From the NCBI GenBank assembly GCA_017642695.1, contig JAEPQD010000001.1:496001-560000 (forward strand): DNA of 64,000 nucleotides. Direction: 5' to 3'. The position numbers and the translations under genes are program-made. Source of the DNA: Parvibaculum sp. Its GTDB lineage: Bacteria; Pseudomonadota; Alphaproteobacteria; Parvibaculales; Parvibaculaceae. Below the pieces are notes generated by a model. It searched no databases and had not been told where the DNA came from. It was given only the letters and a program-made list of their open reading frames with translations. Positions 15,428 through 53,658 of this stretch are shown here, in pieces (positions within the stretch are counted from its first letter, which is position 1; each line of letters starts with the position of its first letter).

Positions 15428-16336
15428 TCAGTGCATCTTCTGGGCGGTCCGGCCGGCGAGGCGGCGGCAGATCTCGTCGAGCTGCTCGAGCGTCTTGTAG
15501 GCGATACGGACCTCGCCGCCCTTGTCGCCCGAATAGGCGATCTCGACCTTGAGGCCGAGCTGGTCGGAGATGTTCTTTTCGAGCGCCAGCGTGTCCGCGT
15601 CCTTTTCCGCTTTCGGCAGCGACTTCGGCTTGGTCGAGGCGGCCGCCGGATCCGGCTTGCGGGTGAGCGCCTCCGCCTCGCGGGCCGAAAGTCCCTTGGC
15701 GACGATCTCGCGGGCGAACTTCTCCGCCTCGTCATGGCCGATCAGCGGCCGGGCCTGGCCGGCTGTGAGCTTGCCTTCCTCGATGAGGGAGCGAACGCCA
15801 TCCGGCAGCGACAGCAGGCGCAGCGTGTTGGCGACATGGGAGCGGCTCTTGCCGATGAGCTTGGAGAGCTTGTCCTGCGTGTATTCGAACTGCTGCATCA
15901 GCCGCTCATAGCCCGCCGCCTCTTCGACGGCGTTGAGGTCCGCGCGCTGAACATTTTCGATGATCGCAATTTCGAGCGACTCGGCATCCGAGAGCTCCTT
16001 CACGATCACCGGCACCTGATGAAGCTGCGCCGCCTGCGCCGCGCGCCAGCGGCGTTCGCCGGCGACGATCTCGAAAGAGTTTGCCACATTGGCAACGGGC
16101 CGCACGACGATCGGCTGAAGGATGCCTTTCTCGCGGATCGAGTTCGCGAGATCCTCCAGGTCTTCCGGCCGGAACGTATGGCGCGGCTGGAACGGGTTCG
16201 CGCGCAGATATTCGATCGGCACCTCGCGAACACCCTTGGGTTGCGGCGCTTCCTTGTCGCCAAGGGCGAACGCCGTATCCTCTCCGATCAGTGCCGCCAG
16301 ACCGCGTCCAAGACGGCTCGGGGTTTCCTCTGCCAT
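15428..16336 (-). CDS. parB: Chromosome-partitioning protein ParB
   Basis: This is the CTP-dependent DNA clamp that loads at parS and spreads to form the partition complex. It has about 302 residues from the MAEETPSRLGRGLAALIG start at 16336; in-frame ATGs at 16342 and 16405 are also possible. The order is an N-terminal ParA-stimulating segment (SRLGRGL), then the ParB/Srx CTPase motifs (NPFQPR near residue 50 and GERRWRA near 100), then IIENVQRADLN, the HTH that reads parS (KLIGKSRSHVANTLRLL), and a C-terminal dimerisation domain. Its gene is 270 bases from parA, wider than the usual tight parAB pair. Confidence 0.97.
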   Translation of the reverse strand: MAEETPSRLGRGLAALIGEDTAFALGDKEAPQPKGVREVPIEYLRANPFQPRHTFRPEDLEDLANSIREKGILQPIVVRPVANVANSFEIVAGERRWRAAQAAQLHQVPVIVKELSDAESLEIAIIENVQRADLNAVEEAAGYERLMQQFEYTQDKLSKLIGKSRSHVANTLRLLSLPDGVRSLIEEGKLTAGQARPLIGHDEAEKFAREIVAKGLSAREAEALTRKPDPAAASTKPKSLPKAEKDADTLALEKNISDQLGLKVEIAYSGDKGGEVRIAYKTLEQLDEICRRLAGRTAQKMH

Positions 16337-16606
16337 TGCCATCGCTTCCCTTCCAATGCCTTTCATAAAACCCTCAACGCCCTGAACACTCGACTTCCCG
16401 GACACTCACCGATCCGAACATGCGCCGGATCCTCTATCTGCCGGCTGCCCTCGGTATGGCCGGTATGACCTAACCATAATCCCGGAATTCCGGGACCTGT
16501 CCGCGAACCAACTTACCAGAACACTACCTTGTATGACCCATAATCAAATAGTTTCAATCCGTTAGGAGACGTTGTTAAGACAACTCACAGCGCCCTTCCG
16601 GACATG
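16337..16606. promoter_or_regulatory. parA-parB spacer with a 16-bp perfect palindrome
   Basis: These 270 bases separate parA from parB, both leftward. The perfect palindrome TCCCGGAATTCCGGGA is at 16480-16495. Beside it is a direct repeat (CGGTATGGCCGGTATG). The part near parA is AT-rich. It may hold a separate parB promoter and an operator. Confidence 0.5.
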
Positions 16607-17554
16607 TCAGGCCGCGCTCCGGCGAATCGCCCGCTCGCGCTGGATCATCTCCGCGGCGAGCTTCATATAGGCCTTGCTGCCGGCGCAGCGATGATCGTAG
16701 ACCAGCGCCGGCTTGCCATAGGACGGCGCTTCCGAGATGCGGACGTTGCGCGGGATCACCGTGCGGTAGACCTTGTCGCCGAGATGCGTGCGTACGTCGC
16801 TCGCGACCTGGTCGGACAGTTTGTTGCGCTGGTCGAACATGGTCAGCACGATGCCCTGGATGTCGAGACGCGGATTGAGACTGGTCTTGACGCGCTCGAC
16901 GGTGCGCAAGAGCTGGCTCAGACCTTCCAGCGCGAAGAACTCGCATTGCAGCGGAACGAGAATCGCGTCGGCCGCCGTCATCGCATTGATGGTGAGCAGG
17001 TTCAGCGACGGCGGGCAATCGATCAGCAGATAGGAGTAGGGCCGCTGGCTCATGCGCTGCTCGGCTTCGCTCGTGTCGCGCTGCTTGCCGTTGCGCGGCA
17101 TGCGCGCGAGCGCATCGCGCAAACGATGCGAGCGGCGCGGCACGGAAGCAAGTTCGAGTTCGGCGCCGAGCAGATCCATCGTGGACGGAACAATATCGAG
17201 ACCGGGCACCTTGGTCGGCACGATCGCATCCTCGATCAGCGCCGCACCGATCAGCACGTCGTAAGCGGAAACCTTGCGCTCATTGCGTCCGATGCCGAGG
17301 CCCGTGCTTGCATTGCCCTGCGGATCGAGATCGACGACAAGGACACGCTCGCCGACAGCGGCAAGCGCGGTACCGAGATTGATCGCCGTCGTCGTCTTGC
17401 CTACGCCGCCCTTCTGATTGGCAACAACGAGGATGCGCGGACGCTCCGTGGACGGAACAACCATCCGGTCGGACCCGGTAGTACCTTGCGGTGTCGTGAT
17501 CGAAGCGGCGGTATTTGCCGCGTCAGCTACCAGCGTCTTGTCGATCTGTTCCAT
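16607..17554 (-). CDS. parA: Chromosome-partitioning ATPase ParA
   Basis: This is a 315-residue ParA-type Walker ATPase that forms the DNA-bound gradient moving ParB-parS. The deviant Walker A is QKGGVGKTT at about residues 47-55, Walker A' is VVDLDPQGNAST, and Walker B is YLLIDCPPSL. Residues 1-36 form a low-complexity N-terminal extension before the fold (ATP-binding strand RILVVANQ). It overlaps the end of rsmG by 32 bases, so rsmG and parA are translationally close. A C-terminal insertion in the EAPSYGKPALVYDHRCAGS loop is typical for the family. Confidence 0.97.
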   Translation of the reverse strand: MEQIDKTLVADAANTAASITTPQGTTGSDRMVVPSTERPRILVVANQKGGVGKTTTAINLGTALAAVGERVLVVDLDPQGNASTGLGIGRNERKVSAYDVLIGAALIEDAIVPTKVPGLDIVPSTMDLLGAELELASVPRRSHRLRDALARMPRNGKQRDTSEAEQRMSQRPYSYLLIDCPPSLNLLTINAMTAADAILVPLQCEFFALEGLSQLLRTVERVKTSLNPRLDIQGIVLTMFDQRNKLSDQVASDVRTHLGDKVYRTVIPRNVRISEAPSYGKPALVYDHRCAGSKAYMKLAAEMIQRERAIRRSAA

Positions 17555-18203
17555 GGAGGCCTCTCAGCTTCAGCACGGAACCCGCCGGATCCGACTGACT
17601 GGGGTAAATGTCAGCCTCGAATATCCAGCTTTTTCGAGCGGCGGTCAATTCATCCTGAACGCCCTGCCCCTTCAAAAACAGGCCAATCGTCTCCGGCCCG
17701 AACAGAGGCGCCGCCCAGCCGAGAAGACGGCCGAGGGGCGCCAGGGCCCGGGCAGACACCACATCGAAGGGTCCGGCCTCGGCGGCGAAGGCCTCAATTC
17801 TCTTATTATACACCTTCGCGGGGGCGCCCGTGGCCCGCGCGACCTCGCGCATGAAGACGCATTTCCGCTGGTCGCTTTCGACCAGATGCATCTCGAAGCC
17901 GGGCCTTTCACGCAGGAGAATGGCGATCACAAGGCCCGGAAAGCCGCCCCCGGAGCCCAGATCGGCCCAGCGCAGGGCCGTTTCCGGCGCCAGGCCCGAA
18001 ATCTGGGCAGAATCGAGCATATGCCGGCGCCAGAGCTCCGGCAAAGTGGCCGCGGAAACGAGATTTATGCTTTTCTGCCACTTGATCAGGAGGGACTCGT
18101 ATTGTGCGAGCCGCTCCATTGTTTCACGTGAAACATGTAGAGCGTCCGAAAAGGATTCCGCATCAATGACTTGCGGGGTTCCGGACACTATATGTTGGGG
18201 CAT
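17523..18203 (-). CDS. rsmG: 16S rRNA (guanine527-N7)-methyltransferase
   Basis: This is a 226-residue Rossmann-fold SAM methyltransferase that modifies G527 of 16S rRNA. The motifs are WADLGSGGGFPGLVIAI (SAM loop), HLVESDQRKCVFMREV and VVSARALAPL. The N-terminus (LLIKWQKSINLVSA) is standard. Codons 23-28 encode HVSRET, which is how the sequence accommodates a perfect parS site within the gene. It sits in the mnmG-rsmG-parA-parB order and starts 15 bases after mnmG ends. Confidence 0.96.
   Translation of the reverse strand: MPQHIVSGTPQVIDAESFSDALHVSRETMERLAQYESLLIKWQKSINLVSAATLPELWRRHMLDSAQISGLAPETALRWADLGSGGGFPGLVIAILLRERPGFEMHLVESDQRKCVFMREVARATGAPAKVYNKRIEAFAAEAGPFDVVSARALAPLGRLLGWAAPLFGPETIGLFLKGQGVQDELTAARKSWIFEADIYPSQSDPAGSVLKLRGLHGTDRQDAGS
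18120..18135. promoter_or_regulatory. parS site 1 (perfect)
   Basis: TGTTTCACGTGAAACA is the exact 16-bp consensus bound by chromosomal ParB. It lies inside the 5' part of the rsmG coding sequence, about 1.8 kb from the parB start. Confidence 0.95.
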
Positions 18204-18218
18204 ACCAGGTATGATGCC

Positions 18219-20075
<1,857 letters not shown>

Positions 20076-20162
20076 CCGCAAAAAAACCTGTCGGAGAATA
20101 AAGTGCCGGAAGAAGAAATGCATGTGCCCGTAGGAACGGATTCGACAGGCGACACGCAGAGA

Positions 20163-20191
20163 GGTTTAGGCGCTTGCGCCCCGCGCGTCAA
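20163..20191 (-). promoter_or_regulatory. mnmG: Candidate mnmG promoter with palindromic spacer
   Basis: On the minus strand, TTGACG (20191-20186) and TAAACC (20168-20163) are 17 bases apart. The spacer contains a perfect inverted repeat GGCGC-TT-GCGCC (20169-20180). The leader before the ATG would be about 80 bases. Confidence 0.55.
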
Positions 20192-20282
20192 AAACTTTTC
20201 CACAGAGTCGAATCAGGATTCCACCGAGTTGAGGATTCCCGTGCAAGCCTTTGAAGCGGAATCGGATTCGCCCGCTTCTTCA

Positions 20283-20298
20283 TGTTTCACGTGAAACA
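20283..20298. promoter_or_regulatory. parS site 3 (perfect)
   Basis: This is the exact TGTTTCACGTGAAACA consensus. It lies in the non-coding gap between mnmG and mnmE, about 4 kb from the parB start and about 16 kb from the putative oriC. Confidence 0.95.
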
Positions 20299-20390
20299 GG
20301 AAATCGCGCCTCATCAATCAAATGCGTCATGACCCGGCTTGTCCGGGCCATGACGAACTGGAAAGGACGAGAGACACGCTCTTCGCCCTC

Positions 20391-35218: not shown

Positions 35219-36258
35219 TCCTGCACCAGCCTTACCAGCTCCGCGACATGCTCGGGCGGCGTCTGCGGCACGATGCCGTGGCCAAGATTGAAGATGAACG
35301 GGCCCTGACCCAGCGTTTCAAGGATATGGAGCGCCTGACGGCGCATCTCCGCACCGCCCGCGACGAGCAGCAGAGGATCGAGATTGCCCTGAAGGCAACC
35401 TGCCTTTTGAAGATTGTCCCGCGCCCATGCCGGGCTCACCCCGGTGTCCAGGCTGAGGCCCGTCACGCCAGTTTCGCGGAAATAGCGCTCCGCCATCCCG
35501 CCCGCGCCGCGCGGAAAGGCAATCACCGGCACATCAGGGAAACGCTCTTTCAGCTTCTTGCGGATCGCCTTCATCGGCAGCAGCGCGAACCGCTCGAAGG
35601 AAAGTTCAGGCAGGCTTCCCGCCCAGGTATCGAACACCTGCAGCACCTCGGCGCCTGCCTCGACCTGTGCGGACAGATGCTCGACCGTCGCTTCGACCAG
35701 AAGGTCGATCAGCATCTGAAACTCATCCGGCGCGCGATAGGCCCATGCCTTTGCCGCCGCCTGGTCGGGTGAACCGCGCCCGCCAACCATATAGGTCGCG
35801 ACCGTCCAGGGCGCACCGGCGAAACCGATCAGGGTGGTCTCGGACGGAAGGCTGCCGGAAAGCCGTGTGACCGTCTCGTAGACCGGCGCAAGCTTGCCCC
35901 TCACGACATCAGGGGACGACAGTTTCGCCAGAGCGGCAAGATCGGTAACGGGCTCGAGCACCGGTCCTTCGCCTTCCTTGAAGGCAACCTTCTGACCGAG
36001 AGCGTCCGGCACCACGAGAATATCTGAAAAGAGGATCGCCGCGTCGAAGCCGAACCGGCGGATCGGCTGCAACGTGACCTCCTCCGCAAAGTCCGGCGTG
36101 TAGCAGAGATCGAGAAAACTGCCTGCCTCCGCCCGCACCTTCCGGTATTCGGGCAGATAGCGTCCCGCCTGGCGCATCAGCCAGACAGGAATGCCATTCG
36201 CCTTCTCGCCTGCGAGTGCCTTGAGCAGCTTCTTTCTGGGAGCCTTTCGATCGCTCAA
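35206..36258 (-). CDS. hemE: Uroporphyrinogen decarboxylase
   Basis: This is a 350-residue enzyme that converts uroporphyrinogen III to coproporphyrinogen III. The signatures are PVWLMRQAGRYLPEYR near the N-terminus, LFSDILVVPDALGQ, GFAGAPWTVATYM and DTWAGSL, with the C-terminal FNLGHGIVPQTPPEHV. The start is TTG at 36258 (LSDRKAPRKKLL), which follows a GGAAAAGAAC site; an in-frame ATG at 36393 would place codons in the AT-rich gap and is less likely. It borders the putative oriC. Confidence 0.96.
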   Translation of the reverse strand: MSDRKAPRKKLLKALAGEKANGIPVWLMRQAGRYLPEYRKVRAEAGSFLDLCYTPDFAEEVTLQPIRRFGFDAAILFSDILVVPDALGQKVAFKEGEGPVLEPVTDLAALAKLSSPDVVRGKLAPVYETVTRLSGSLPSETTLIGFAGAPWTVATYMVGGRGSPDQAAAKAWAYRAPDEFQMLIDLLVEATVEHLSAQVEAGAEVLQVFDTWAGSLPELSFERFALLPMKAIRKKLKERFPDVPVIAFPRGAGGMAERYFRETGVTGLSLDTGVSPAWARDNLQKAGCLQGNLDPLLLVAGGAEMRRQALHILETLGQGPFIFNLGHGIVPQTPPEHVAELVRLVQEWRS

Positions 36259-36801
36259 CCGTTCTTTTCCTAACCCTATAAAAGAATCTTGTTTGTAGTG
36301 GATAGTGGTGGATGCCTGTGAAGCACGGGGATCATTTTTCGCTCCCGTTTCTTCCACAGACATGCAGCCGTCACACGGGACCCCGCCCGGCACCCGCCTT
36401 CTATGCCACAGCCTGTTGACGATTGCAGCCCGTCACGCTGACGCGCCTTGTTACGCAGACCCTTGCCCTGTGGATTGCCACCGCATGCAAAACCGTTAAT
36501 AGCGGGGACAAGTCGCGCGACAGGCGCTGACCTCGCGGTCATACCCATTTTCCGCAAGCGGGAGACGGCGTTTCCCACCAGTGAGATGGAATCGGGGAGC
36601 GAAAACGAAGCACGGGTATGACCGGGTAGGGCTTCAATCCTTAAGCCCGCTTACACCCGTTAATCACAGCTTTCCACAGGCACGGGGCGAACATGCGCTC
36701 CCACTGTTATGGCTTGCAGAAAAAGAATTGGCCCCGGCGGGACGCGCCCGATACCTTTGCCAGCCGGCGGCGCTGCCGCCGGACCCTGCGGACCGGAGTT
36801 C
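36259..36801. other. Putative chromosome replication origin (oriC)
   Basis: This is a 543-base non-coding gap between hemE (leftward) and ppsR (rightward). In Caulobacter and many relatives the chromosome origin lies between these genes, and the downstream ppsR-maf-aroE-coaE-dnaQ order here is the same. Five 9-mers are within two mismatches of TTATCCACA: 36297-36305 (minus), 36350-36358, 36469-36477 (minus), 36660-36668 and 36670-36678. Two GANTC sites lie at 36284 and 36589. A hairpin (CCGGCGGC-GCT-GCCGCCGG) lies at 36764-36782, just before the ppsR start. Confidence 0.75.
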
Positions 36802-44806: not shown

Positions 44807-45174
44807 CGCCCTTCGGCCGCAGGCTGCGGGAGTTGCGGCGAGAGCGCGGCGTCACCATGAAGGAGATGGCGGCGGCGCTGCGCGTCACCCCTGCCTATCT
44901 CTCCGCGCTGGAGCATGGCCGCCGCGGCAAACCGAGCTGGCGGCTGGTGCAGGCGATCATCGGCTATTTCAACGTGATCTGGGACGAGGCGGAGGAACTG
45001 GAACGTCTTGCGCGAATTTCGCACCCCCGCGTCGTCATCGACACGGCGGGCCTTGCCCCCCAGGCAACGGAAGCGGCAAACCGGCTGGCGGAAGAGATTT
45101 CGGACATGTCTTCGGCGGAAATCGCCAAGCTGCTTGCCCTTCTCGATGGAAGAAAACGCCGGCGCGGCACATGA
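44803..45174 (+). CDS. XRE-family helix-turn-helix protein
   Basis: This is a 123-residue single-domain regulator. The HTH is at about residues 15-50 (GVTMKEMAAALRVTPAYLSALEHGRRGKPS), followed by a helical tail (LIGYFNV-type, then SSAEIAKLLALLDGRKRRR). It is co-translated with the Smr gene, so it may regulate that unit. No toxin partner is visible. Confidence 0.9.
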   Translation: MTPFGRRLRELRRERGVTMKEMAAALRVTPAYLSALEHGRRGKPSWRLVQAIIGYFNVIWDEAEELERLARISHPRVVIDTAGLAPQATEAANRLAEEISDMSSAEIAKLLALLDGRKRRRGT

Positions 45175-45356
45175 CTCGCTGCAGGTTAATGTAAAAGGGG
45201 CCTGTGGACTCGCTCCGGGCGAAGAAATGATTTTCGGGATTCGCCCGTTGCGAGACGGGCGCCCGCCGCGGATTCGCTGGCGGCAGCGCGATAGACGAAC
45301 CGGCCGCGAGCGGCTTCAATGAAGCGGCGCTCCTTGCCGCCACGGCATGACGGATC

Positions 45357-53289: not shown

Positions 53290-53658
53290 GGGCTCGGGCT
53301 CCTTTCGGGCGGCGTCGGGGCGCCTTATATGGCGTCGGGGTACCTCCGGCGCCATTGCTTATTCTCTTCAACATATTGTGAGGTAGTGTGCTTCGAATAC
53401 TAGAAGAGCAGCGCGGCTATAATTTGAATCAACAAGTTAGCACTTGTCCCGAAAGAGGATTCGGAGCAACTTAAAGTATTGGATGAGAAGTGCTCCAGAA
53501 TATTGGTTAACGTGCTGTAAGTATTTGTGATTCAATCTGAATCATCGCTTGAAGGATGACGGGCGCAGTGGCGGAGGCTTTGCGCTGGTCCGTCGCCCGC
53601 CCGCCTGATAAAAGCGGCCCGCCAACCGGCCGTTTGAGCCCGAACCGGAAACCGAACA
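53290..53658 (+). other. AT-rich region upstream of hisB
   Basis: These 369 bases are clearly richer in A and T than the flanks. Four GANTC sites lie at 53426, 53458, 53529 and 53539. An inverted repeat GGAGCA (53463-53468) / TGCTCC (53491-53496) lies between them. It must hold the hisB promoter. I see no coding sequence. Confidence 0.45.

Follow-up and report, generated by a model that had tools for sequence, protein, structure and literature searches.

How bacteria segregate a centromere only once it has been copied, and how they tell the sister centromeres apart, is an open problem. The parS of plasmid P1 uses IHF. In Caulobacter, a CGACTC motif is reported to mediate the activation of ftsZ and mipZ by CcrM methylation (PMC3708114), and 96 cell-cycle start sites are described with a GANTC at most 50 bp upstream, 11 of them with more than one, timing being related to position (PMC4287350). 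DnaA binds the parS region of Caulobacter crescentus (Mera et al. 2014, as cited in the review PMC6399470). In repABC replicons, a role in partitioning was suggested for the GANTC near parS of Agrobacterium (A. tumefaciens ori2, PMC11514494), and GANTC is also reported near parS in pAMI4 3parS (PMC9040568). GANTC methylation at the Caulobacter parS locus was described as unchanged upon methylase expression (PMC5172544), a result which, in our view, neither supports nor excludes a switch. GANTC is said to be scarce in CcrM-bearing alphaproteobacteria generally, the intergenic DNA of these genomes being richer in it (PMC3973325).

Here we analyse a window of 64,000 nucleotides from a Parvibaculum sp. 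genome of 3.62 Mb (3623 kb) in nine contigs. Comparison of its MnmG with relatives supports this genus, the top named hit being a Parvibaculum MAG at 91%. A preliminary description of this DNA had pointed to a group of GANTC sites upstream of mnmG. The observation is confirmed and its interpretation partly supported, the focus being moved from control of mnmG or of an origin to the centromere and the par operon.

RESULTS

The mnmE-mnmG gap precedes the par genes and carries a parS

Both mnmE and mnmG are on the minus strand. The likely mnmG start is at 20075, and the gap between the two genes therefore covers 315 bp (20076-20390). mnmG (gidA, 18219-20075, Pfam GIDA 2e-171) is followed on the same strand, with tight spacing, by rsmG (gidB, 17523-18203, Pfam GidB), parA (16607-17554, AAA_31 3e-57) and parB (15428-16405, domains ParB_N, HTH_ParB and ParB_C). 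Past mnmE lies a terminator-like hairpin (20325-20355, minus strand), a possible operon boundary although weak as evidence, since one was found against 0.6 expected in shuffled sequences. Given the common strand of the genes, this hairpin and the close gene spacing, a mnmG-rsmG-parA-parB operon most likely has its promoter in the gap.

A putative promoter of this operon, TTGACG-N17-TAAACC, reads on the minus strand from 20191 to 20163, in the mnmG direction as previously described. It is proposed from its conservation: the alignment shows the forms TTGACG-N17-TATTGC, TAAAGC or TAAACC in relatives. Scanning the region with the E. coli-type sigma-70 consensus returned no promoter. The GANTC at 20139-20143, placed in the control region by the earlier layout, sits downstream of this promoter in the presumed mnmG leader, within a conserved GAATCCGTTCCTACGG that shows few changes, and is kept in 13 of 13 aligned sequences. 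The leader (20100-20143) is conserved around GAATCCGTTCCTACGGGCAC, and no evident Shine-Dalgarno sequence precedes the mnmG ATG. A leader RNA hairpin, CCGT-loop-ACGG, was judged by eye on the alignment and rejected, being broken in L016. The GGCGC-TT-GCGCC palindrome that had been counted in the control region is present as GGCGCTTGCGCC (20169-20180) and is not conserved past the nearest relative; partly kept only in L009 and absent from the other 11 aligned relatives, it was rejected as an operator.

Motif search located a perfect parS, TGTTTCACGTGAAACA, at the far end of the region as claimed (parS1, 20283-20298) and a second one within rsmG (parS2, 18120-18135). A degenerate parS with one mismatch, which includes a GANTC, lies at the mnmG 3′ end (18235-18250); it reads TGATTCACGTGAAACA on the operon strand and is present with one or two mismatches in 18 of 33 loci. 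These three are the only places in the genome within one mismatch of parS. A perfect parS beside parA and parB and near oriC is what characterises a chromosomal ParABS centromere, and ParB binding is predicted.

A dense GANTC array adjoins a DnaA box

The seven announced GANTC do start at 20139, 20205, 20210, 20217, 20234, 20259 and 20265, the last six forming a cluster within 65 bases (20205-20269). The background of about one site per 256 bases against which they had been set understates the anomaly, because GANTC is depleted in the window (96 seen against 386 expected) and has a rate of 1.49/kb over 864 kb of the genome. This sample consists of the window and 40 stretches of 20 kb, that is 24% of 3623 kb. 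Over it, the top 70-bp span is the cluster with six sites, the next best (nine spans) having three; for 135 bp, the figures are seven at the cluster versus four elsewhere. None of 5000 dinucleotide shuffles of the 93-bp segment holding the six sites reached six (mean 0.8). In the window, the next-densest groups, at 45173-45275 and 53426-53543, have four GANTC each.

A degenerate consensus for the DnaA box is TTWTNCACA. The proposed DnaA-box-like TTTTCCACA (20196-20204, plus strand), 4 bp upstream of the -35 box, fits it without mismatch and is its sole match in the 64 kb. By itself, one match per window is unsurprising, since 0.8 is expected and 59 of 100 shuffles reach one. All 11 cluster-bearing loci have TGTGGAAAA or TGTGGATAA on the operon strand. 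A box at parS1 was also found in two g5 loci. In five of seven g3 genomes (G003, G009, G006, G007 and G008; loci L209, L223, L224, L226 and L228), the box match TGTGGATAA lies at the mnmG-rsmG junction, 54 bp before parS2. A DnaA box beside parS, as expected of a DnaA-bound centromere, is thus found in the sequence; its occupancy is predicted.

The array is conserved in part of the genus

Relatives were taken from 40 family genomes, which also make up the genomes of the order. MnmG was matched in 36 of them (weakly in G029), and 30 were returned as loci, the window's own included; counts come from related genomes and are uncorrected for kinship. Eleven of the 30 family loci (L008-L018, same genus, own included) carry four to six of the six array sites together with a TTWTNCACA box, so that the cluster is present in close relatives. 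L019, L023 and L024 keep three upstream sites, without the DnaA box, and the remaining 16 loci have zero to two GANTC. In 13 of the 19 family loci devoid of the full array, a GANTC nevertheless stands 0-4 bp from parS1. A perfect parS is found upstream of mnmG in 30 of 30.

Across 13 aligned sequences, the sites from 20205 to 20265 are kept in 8, 7, 10, 13, 13 and 12, respectively. L014, which carries an insertion, was excluded from this alignment and from the column tests, and included in the observed/expected counts for the gap. These were 66/24.5 for 10 cluster loci (one with the insertion), 33/14.7 for 19 other family loci and 24/30.7 for 59 other alphaproteobacterial loci; they used 10 of 11, 19 of 19 and 59 of 71 loci, those with an unrecognised mnmE end or mnmG start being excluded. 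Columns of the cluster GANTC are more conserved than the others (permutation p 5e-5 with 10 sequences, 0.004 with 13, kinship uncorrected), and the degree of conservation is about the same in their N columns as in the fixed ones.

Chance or base composition could in principle have produced such an array: intergenic DNA of CcrM-bearing genomes is reported to be richer in GANTC (PMC3973325), and seven sites in the whole 315-bp gap were reached by 10 of 5000 shuffles. This explanation is contradicted by conservation. The spacing is conserved in 11 to 14 genomes, no comparable span occurs in the 864 kb, and each of the 12 relatives compared with the window resembles it more closely in the cluster segment than at the third codon positions of mnmG. 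We therefore regard an artefact as barely credible.

The mnmE-mnmG gap of Niveispirillum irakense (L075:2253-2299) contains five GANTC in 36 bp, then TTTTTCCACA, possibly an independent GANTC-plus-DnaA-box module. Its congener L073 has a short gap and no GANTC.

The same GANTC-containing element stands at both parS

Sequence comparison revealed an element, CAAGCCTTTGAAGCGGAATC (element 1, 20244-20263, plus strand), 19 bp from parS1, and a similar one, CAAGTCATTGATGCGGAATC (element 2, 18154-18173, minus strand), 18 bp from parS2. Read towards parS, 17 of 20 bases are identical, the shared form being CAAG-N-C-N-TTGA…GGAATC. Element 1 is non-coding and element 2 is codon-locked in rsmG. The spacing is 18 bp at both parS in seven relatives. 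With the GANTC set aside, g2 left out and the best value among all site pairs taken, one column shuffle in 5000 gave a likeness as high.

The parS neighbourhoods were compared across the window, G013 and 31 fetched regions, which make 33 family loci with 68 perfect parS including those of g2. A GANTC lies at most 40 bp from 63 of the 68. In the 31 non-g2 genomes, GANTC occurs at 16.7/kb within 60 bp of a perfect parS (124 sites) versus 1.9/kb elsewhere, an 8.9-fold enrichment and the highest among 16 palindromic pentamers, the others reaching at most 3.95 (TANTA, 7 sites), then 1.96. A GANTC starts 23 bp before parS2 in 31 of 33 loci. The peptide QVxDAESF could account for it, and codon identity was therefore measured: after parS, element 2 is the most codon-locked block of rsmG (CAA 30/30, GAT 31/31, TCC 30/31, TTT 32/33). 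The arrangement GANTC-N18-parS occurs in 35 of the 40 genomes of the order (43 places; control 0/40). It is missing from g2 (G001 and G002) and from three incomplete genomes (G010, G028 and G029).

Genome searches gave the same localisation. With CAAGNCNTTGANGNGGAATC, all 16 zero-mismatch matches in 18 genomes are at the par locus, as are five of six matches with one mismatch; with two mismatches there are 26, two at the par locus and 24 elsewhere, the control giving 21 at up to two mismatches. As the pattern was built from the same sequences, matches at the locus are expected, and the result is their absence elsewhere. CAANNNNTTGNNNNNGAATCCT was matched 16 times, in 12 of 14 genomes and always at the par locus, with none in the control and few expected by chance. 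In the window, CAANNNNTTGNNNNNGANTC has three zero-mismatch matches, at the two parS; this count alone proves nothing because shuffles with one mismatch allowed average 3.2.

Outside the family, at 110 parS-like sites of other alphaproteobacteria (outer base free, 71 scanned loci), no GANTC was found at gap 18, two were found at gap 17 or 19, and GANTC enrichment is small (3.1 versus 2.1 per kb). Within the family, the g2 genomes (L230 and L219) have two parS between mnmE and mnmG, without the element; their par locus is GANTC-poor (2 in 5.7 kb and 7 in 6.9 kb of the fetched regions), with a GANTC within 40 bp of two of six parS.

The conserved N columns of the array, together with the locked TCC and TTT codons, raise the possibility that selection acts on a protein site which merely contains GANTC. 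The IHF consensus is WATCAANNNNTTR, with a CAA-N4-TTG core. CAAG…GGAATC might accordingly be bound by a protein, either IHF-like or a ParB accessory, with a nucleoid or partition role, that bends or organises parS DNA, the GANTC being incidental. Both elements have the CAA-N4-TTG core, the reverse strand of element 2 reading CATCAA-N4-CTTG-like, one base off; the genome has ihfA, and conservation of the N and flanking columns is close to that of GANTC. This core and ihfA make an IHF-type protein a candidate. As IHF sites are degenerate, however, the match is weak evidence. The WAT part is only partial, and poor at element 1, which fits IHF worse than element 2. In addition, GANTC is still near parS1 in those 13 of 19 loci, whose lineages lack the element there. 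We consider this reading, with its incidental GANTC, rather doubtful.

Methylation machinery and an insertion bearing on promoter control

Absence of ccrM would have counted against the earlier interpretation; the gene is found, with a RAMA domain, and gcrA is present as well. RAMA matches were obtained in 37 of 40 family genomes, including a CcrM-type match in G002, a g2 genome without the element; no RAMA match was found in G018, which is 98% complete and has the elements. A conserved GANTC near a candidate promoter, in a genome with ccrM and gcrA, is the configuration of CcrM/GcrA promoters, and dependence on methylation or GcrA is predicted.

One reading would be purely transcriptional, with a mnmG-rsmG-parAB promoter responding to CcrM, GcrA and DnaA, and parS near it merely by sharing the gap. 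The DnaA box abuts the -35 box, and both the core promoter and the leader GANTC are conserved. The promoter-proximal GACTC is part of a CGACTC, the motif described as important at Caulobacter ftsZ and mipZ (PMC3708114), and the timed Caulobacter start sites with GANTC at most 50 bp upstream offer a parallel (PMC4287350). Yet element 2 is in coding DNA with no conserved -10 seen, and matches element 1 in sequence and spacing, and the GANTC 0-4 bp from parS1 persists in the 13 loci mentioned above. As parS2, for which no promoter was recognised, has the same element at nearly the same distance, the GANTC association is, to judge from the sequences, with parS itself and not only with the promoter.

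G013 also bears on this point. It carries both elements, and a transposon-like insertion (L168:7645-8776) lies between its DnaA box and -35 box. The insertion encodes a transposase-like protein, which we take to be IS1595-type, and is flanked on both sides by AAAGTTTT; its end repeats contain a TGTGGATAA. parS1, four array sites and the DnaA box stand on one side, the promoter on the other. This layout, a single case, agrees with the element belonging to parS. It speaks against promoter control as the whole explanation, which we hold to be possible though unlikely, and also counts against the main reading proposed below.

The origin probably lies beside hemE

An origin-like function had also been suggested for the gap. 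In a Caulobacter-type oriC, the gap adjacent to hemE has several DnaA boxes and a Kinase/PPPase gene follows in order. In the window, the hemE start is placed near 36257 and is followed by a gap and then a Kinase/PPPase gene, about 16 kb from the mnmE-mnmG gap. On this gene order, the interval of about 540 bp (36258-36800, ends inferred) is the probable chromosomal oriC. The window has 68 sequences that differ from TTATCCACA by at most two bases, and six of them fall here. This interval also contains two GANTC. The mnmE-mnmG gap has one DnaA box and no hemE. GC skew, taken from stretches sampled in two genomes, was too noisy for locating the origin.

A DnaA-box match adjoining methylation sites could still denote a second origin or a DnaA-titrating site analogous to datA or DARS. 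But the box is single, and the oriC gene order and the six DnaA-like sequences are in the hemE gap 16 kb off. The gap was therefore rejected as the origin, and any origin-like or titrating function appears very improbable.

DISCUSSION

From the layout, its conservation, the duplicated element and the presence of ccrM, gcrA and ihfA, we infer a model in which methylation, readers, binding, timing and effect are predicted. We propose, with a probability of roughly one half, that the locus is a centromere together with the head promoter of its operon, and that a parS-linked, CcrM-methylatable element makes both sensitive to fork passage. In Parvibaculum, CAAG-N-C-N-TTGA…GGAATC places a CcrM site 18-19 bp from each parS and, at parS1, is extended into the GANTC array and the DnaA box abutting the promoter. 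Since the locus is about 16 kb from the probable oriC, the fork would pass early and leave the GANTC sites hemimethylated. A methylation-sensitive reader, GcrA being the best candidate, would act at these sites with DnaA and possibly an IHF-type bending protein. It would change how the par operon is transcribed, how ParB-parS complexes assemble, or both, and segregation would thereby be tied to replication of the centromere. That methylation, DnaA and ParB are linked to this locus, as first suggested, is plausible; as the promoter heads mnmG-rsmG-parA-parB, parAB is a likelier target than mnmG alone.

In a variant of this model, each chromosomal parS of Parvibaculaceae would form a composite with a CcrM-methylatable element at fixed distance, a methylation-marked centromere whose hemimethylation once the fork has passed would license ParB-parS assembly or discrimination of the sisters, with DnaA as a second input. 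We view this variant as possible though unlikely.

Several observations count against reading the element as a methylation element. g2 lacks it despite the CcrM-type RAMA match of G002, and G018 has it without a RAMA match. Only some members of the genus have the dense array and the box at parS1, and GANTC enrichment at other alphaproteobacterial parS-like sites is low.

If the proposed fork-sensitive centromere and promoter is correct, a parS accompanied at fixed spacing by a conserved methylation site would be a natural sensor of replication passage, and a methylation cluster with a DnaA box at the promoter of the partition operon could let the cell sense that the region has just been copied. 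Among the top-ranked results of an open-literature search, with subscription journals mostly outside its scope, no earlier description of a unit of parS and a methylation element at fixed spacing was found.

Known systems share parts of this arrangement. P1 plasmid parS resembles it through a possible site for a bending protein beside the ParB site, and differs in ParB type, spacing and the methylation site; a role of IHF in Parvibaculum would follow from motif resemblance only. The Caulobacter ftsZ and mipZ promoters, reported to be activated by CcrM, likewise have conserved GANTC, including CGACTC, upstream of a segregation or division gene (PMC3708114), whereas Parvibaculum has six sites in 65 bp and its GANTC track parS even in coding DNA. 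Caulobacter crescentus, as reviewed, likewise has its chromosomal parS next to a DnaA site and a few kb away from the origin (PMC6399470). In Parvibaculum, by contrast, a consensus box, where DnaA is predicted to bind, adjoins a GANTC array that is dense and conserved, and an element recurs at both parS. The repABC replicons are described with CcrM sites in the promoter of the partition operon and near parS (A. tumefaciens ori2, PMC11514494; pAMI4, PMC9040568). In contrast to them, the Parvibaculum locus is a main-chromosome ParABS system with canonical parS, a fixed spacing of 18-19 bp and a sequence element shared by the two sites.
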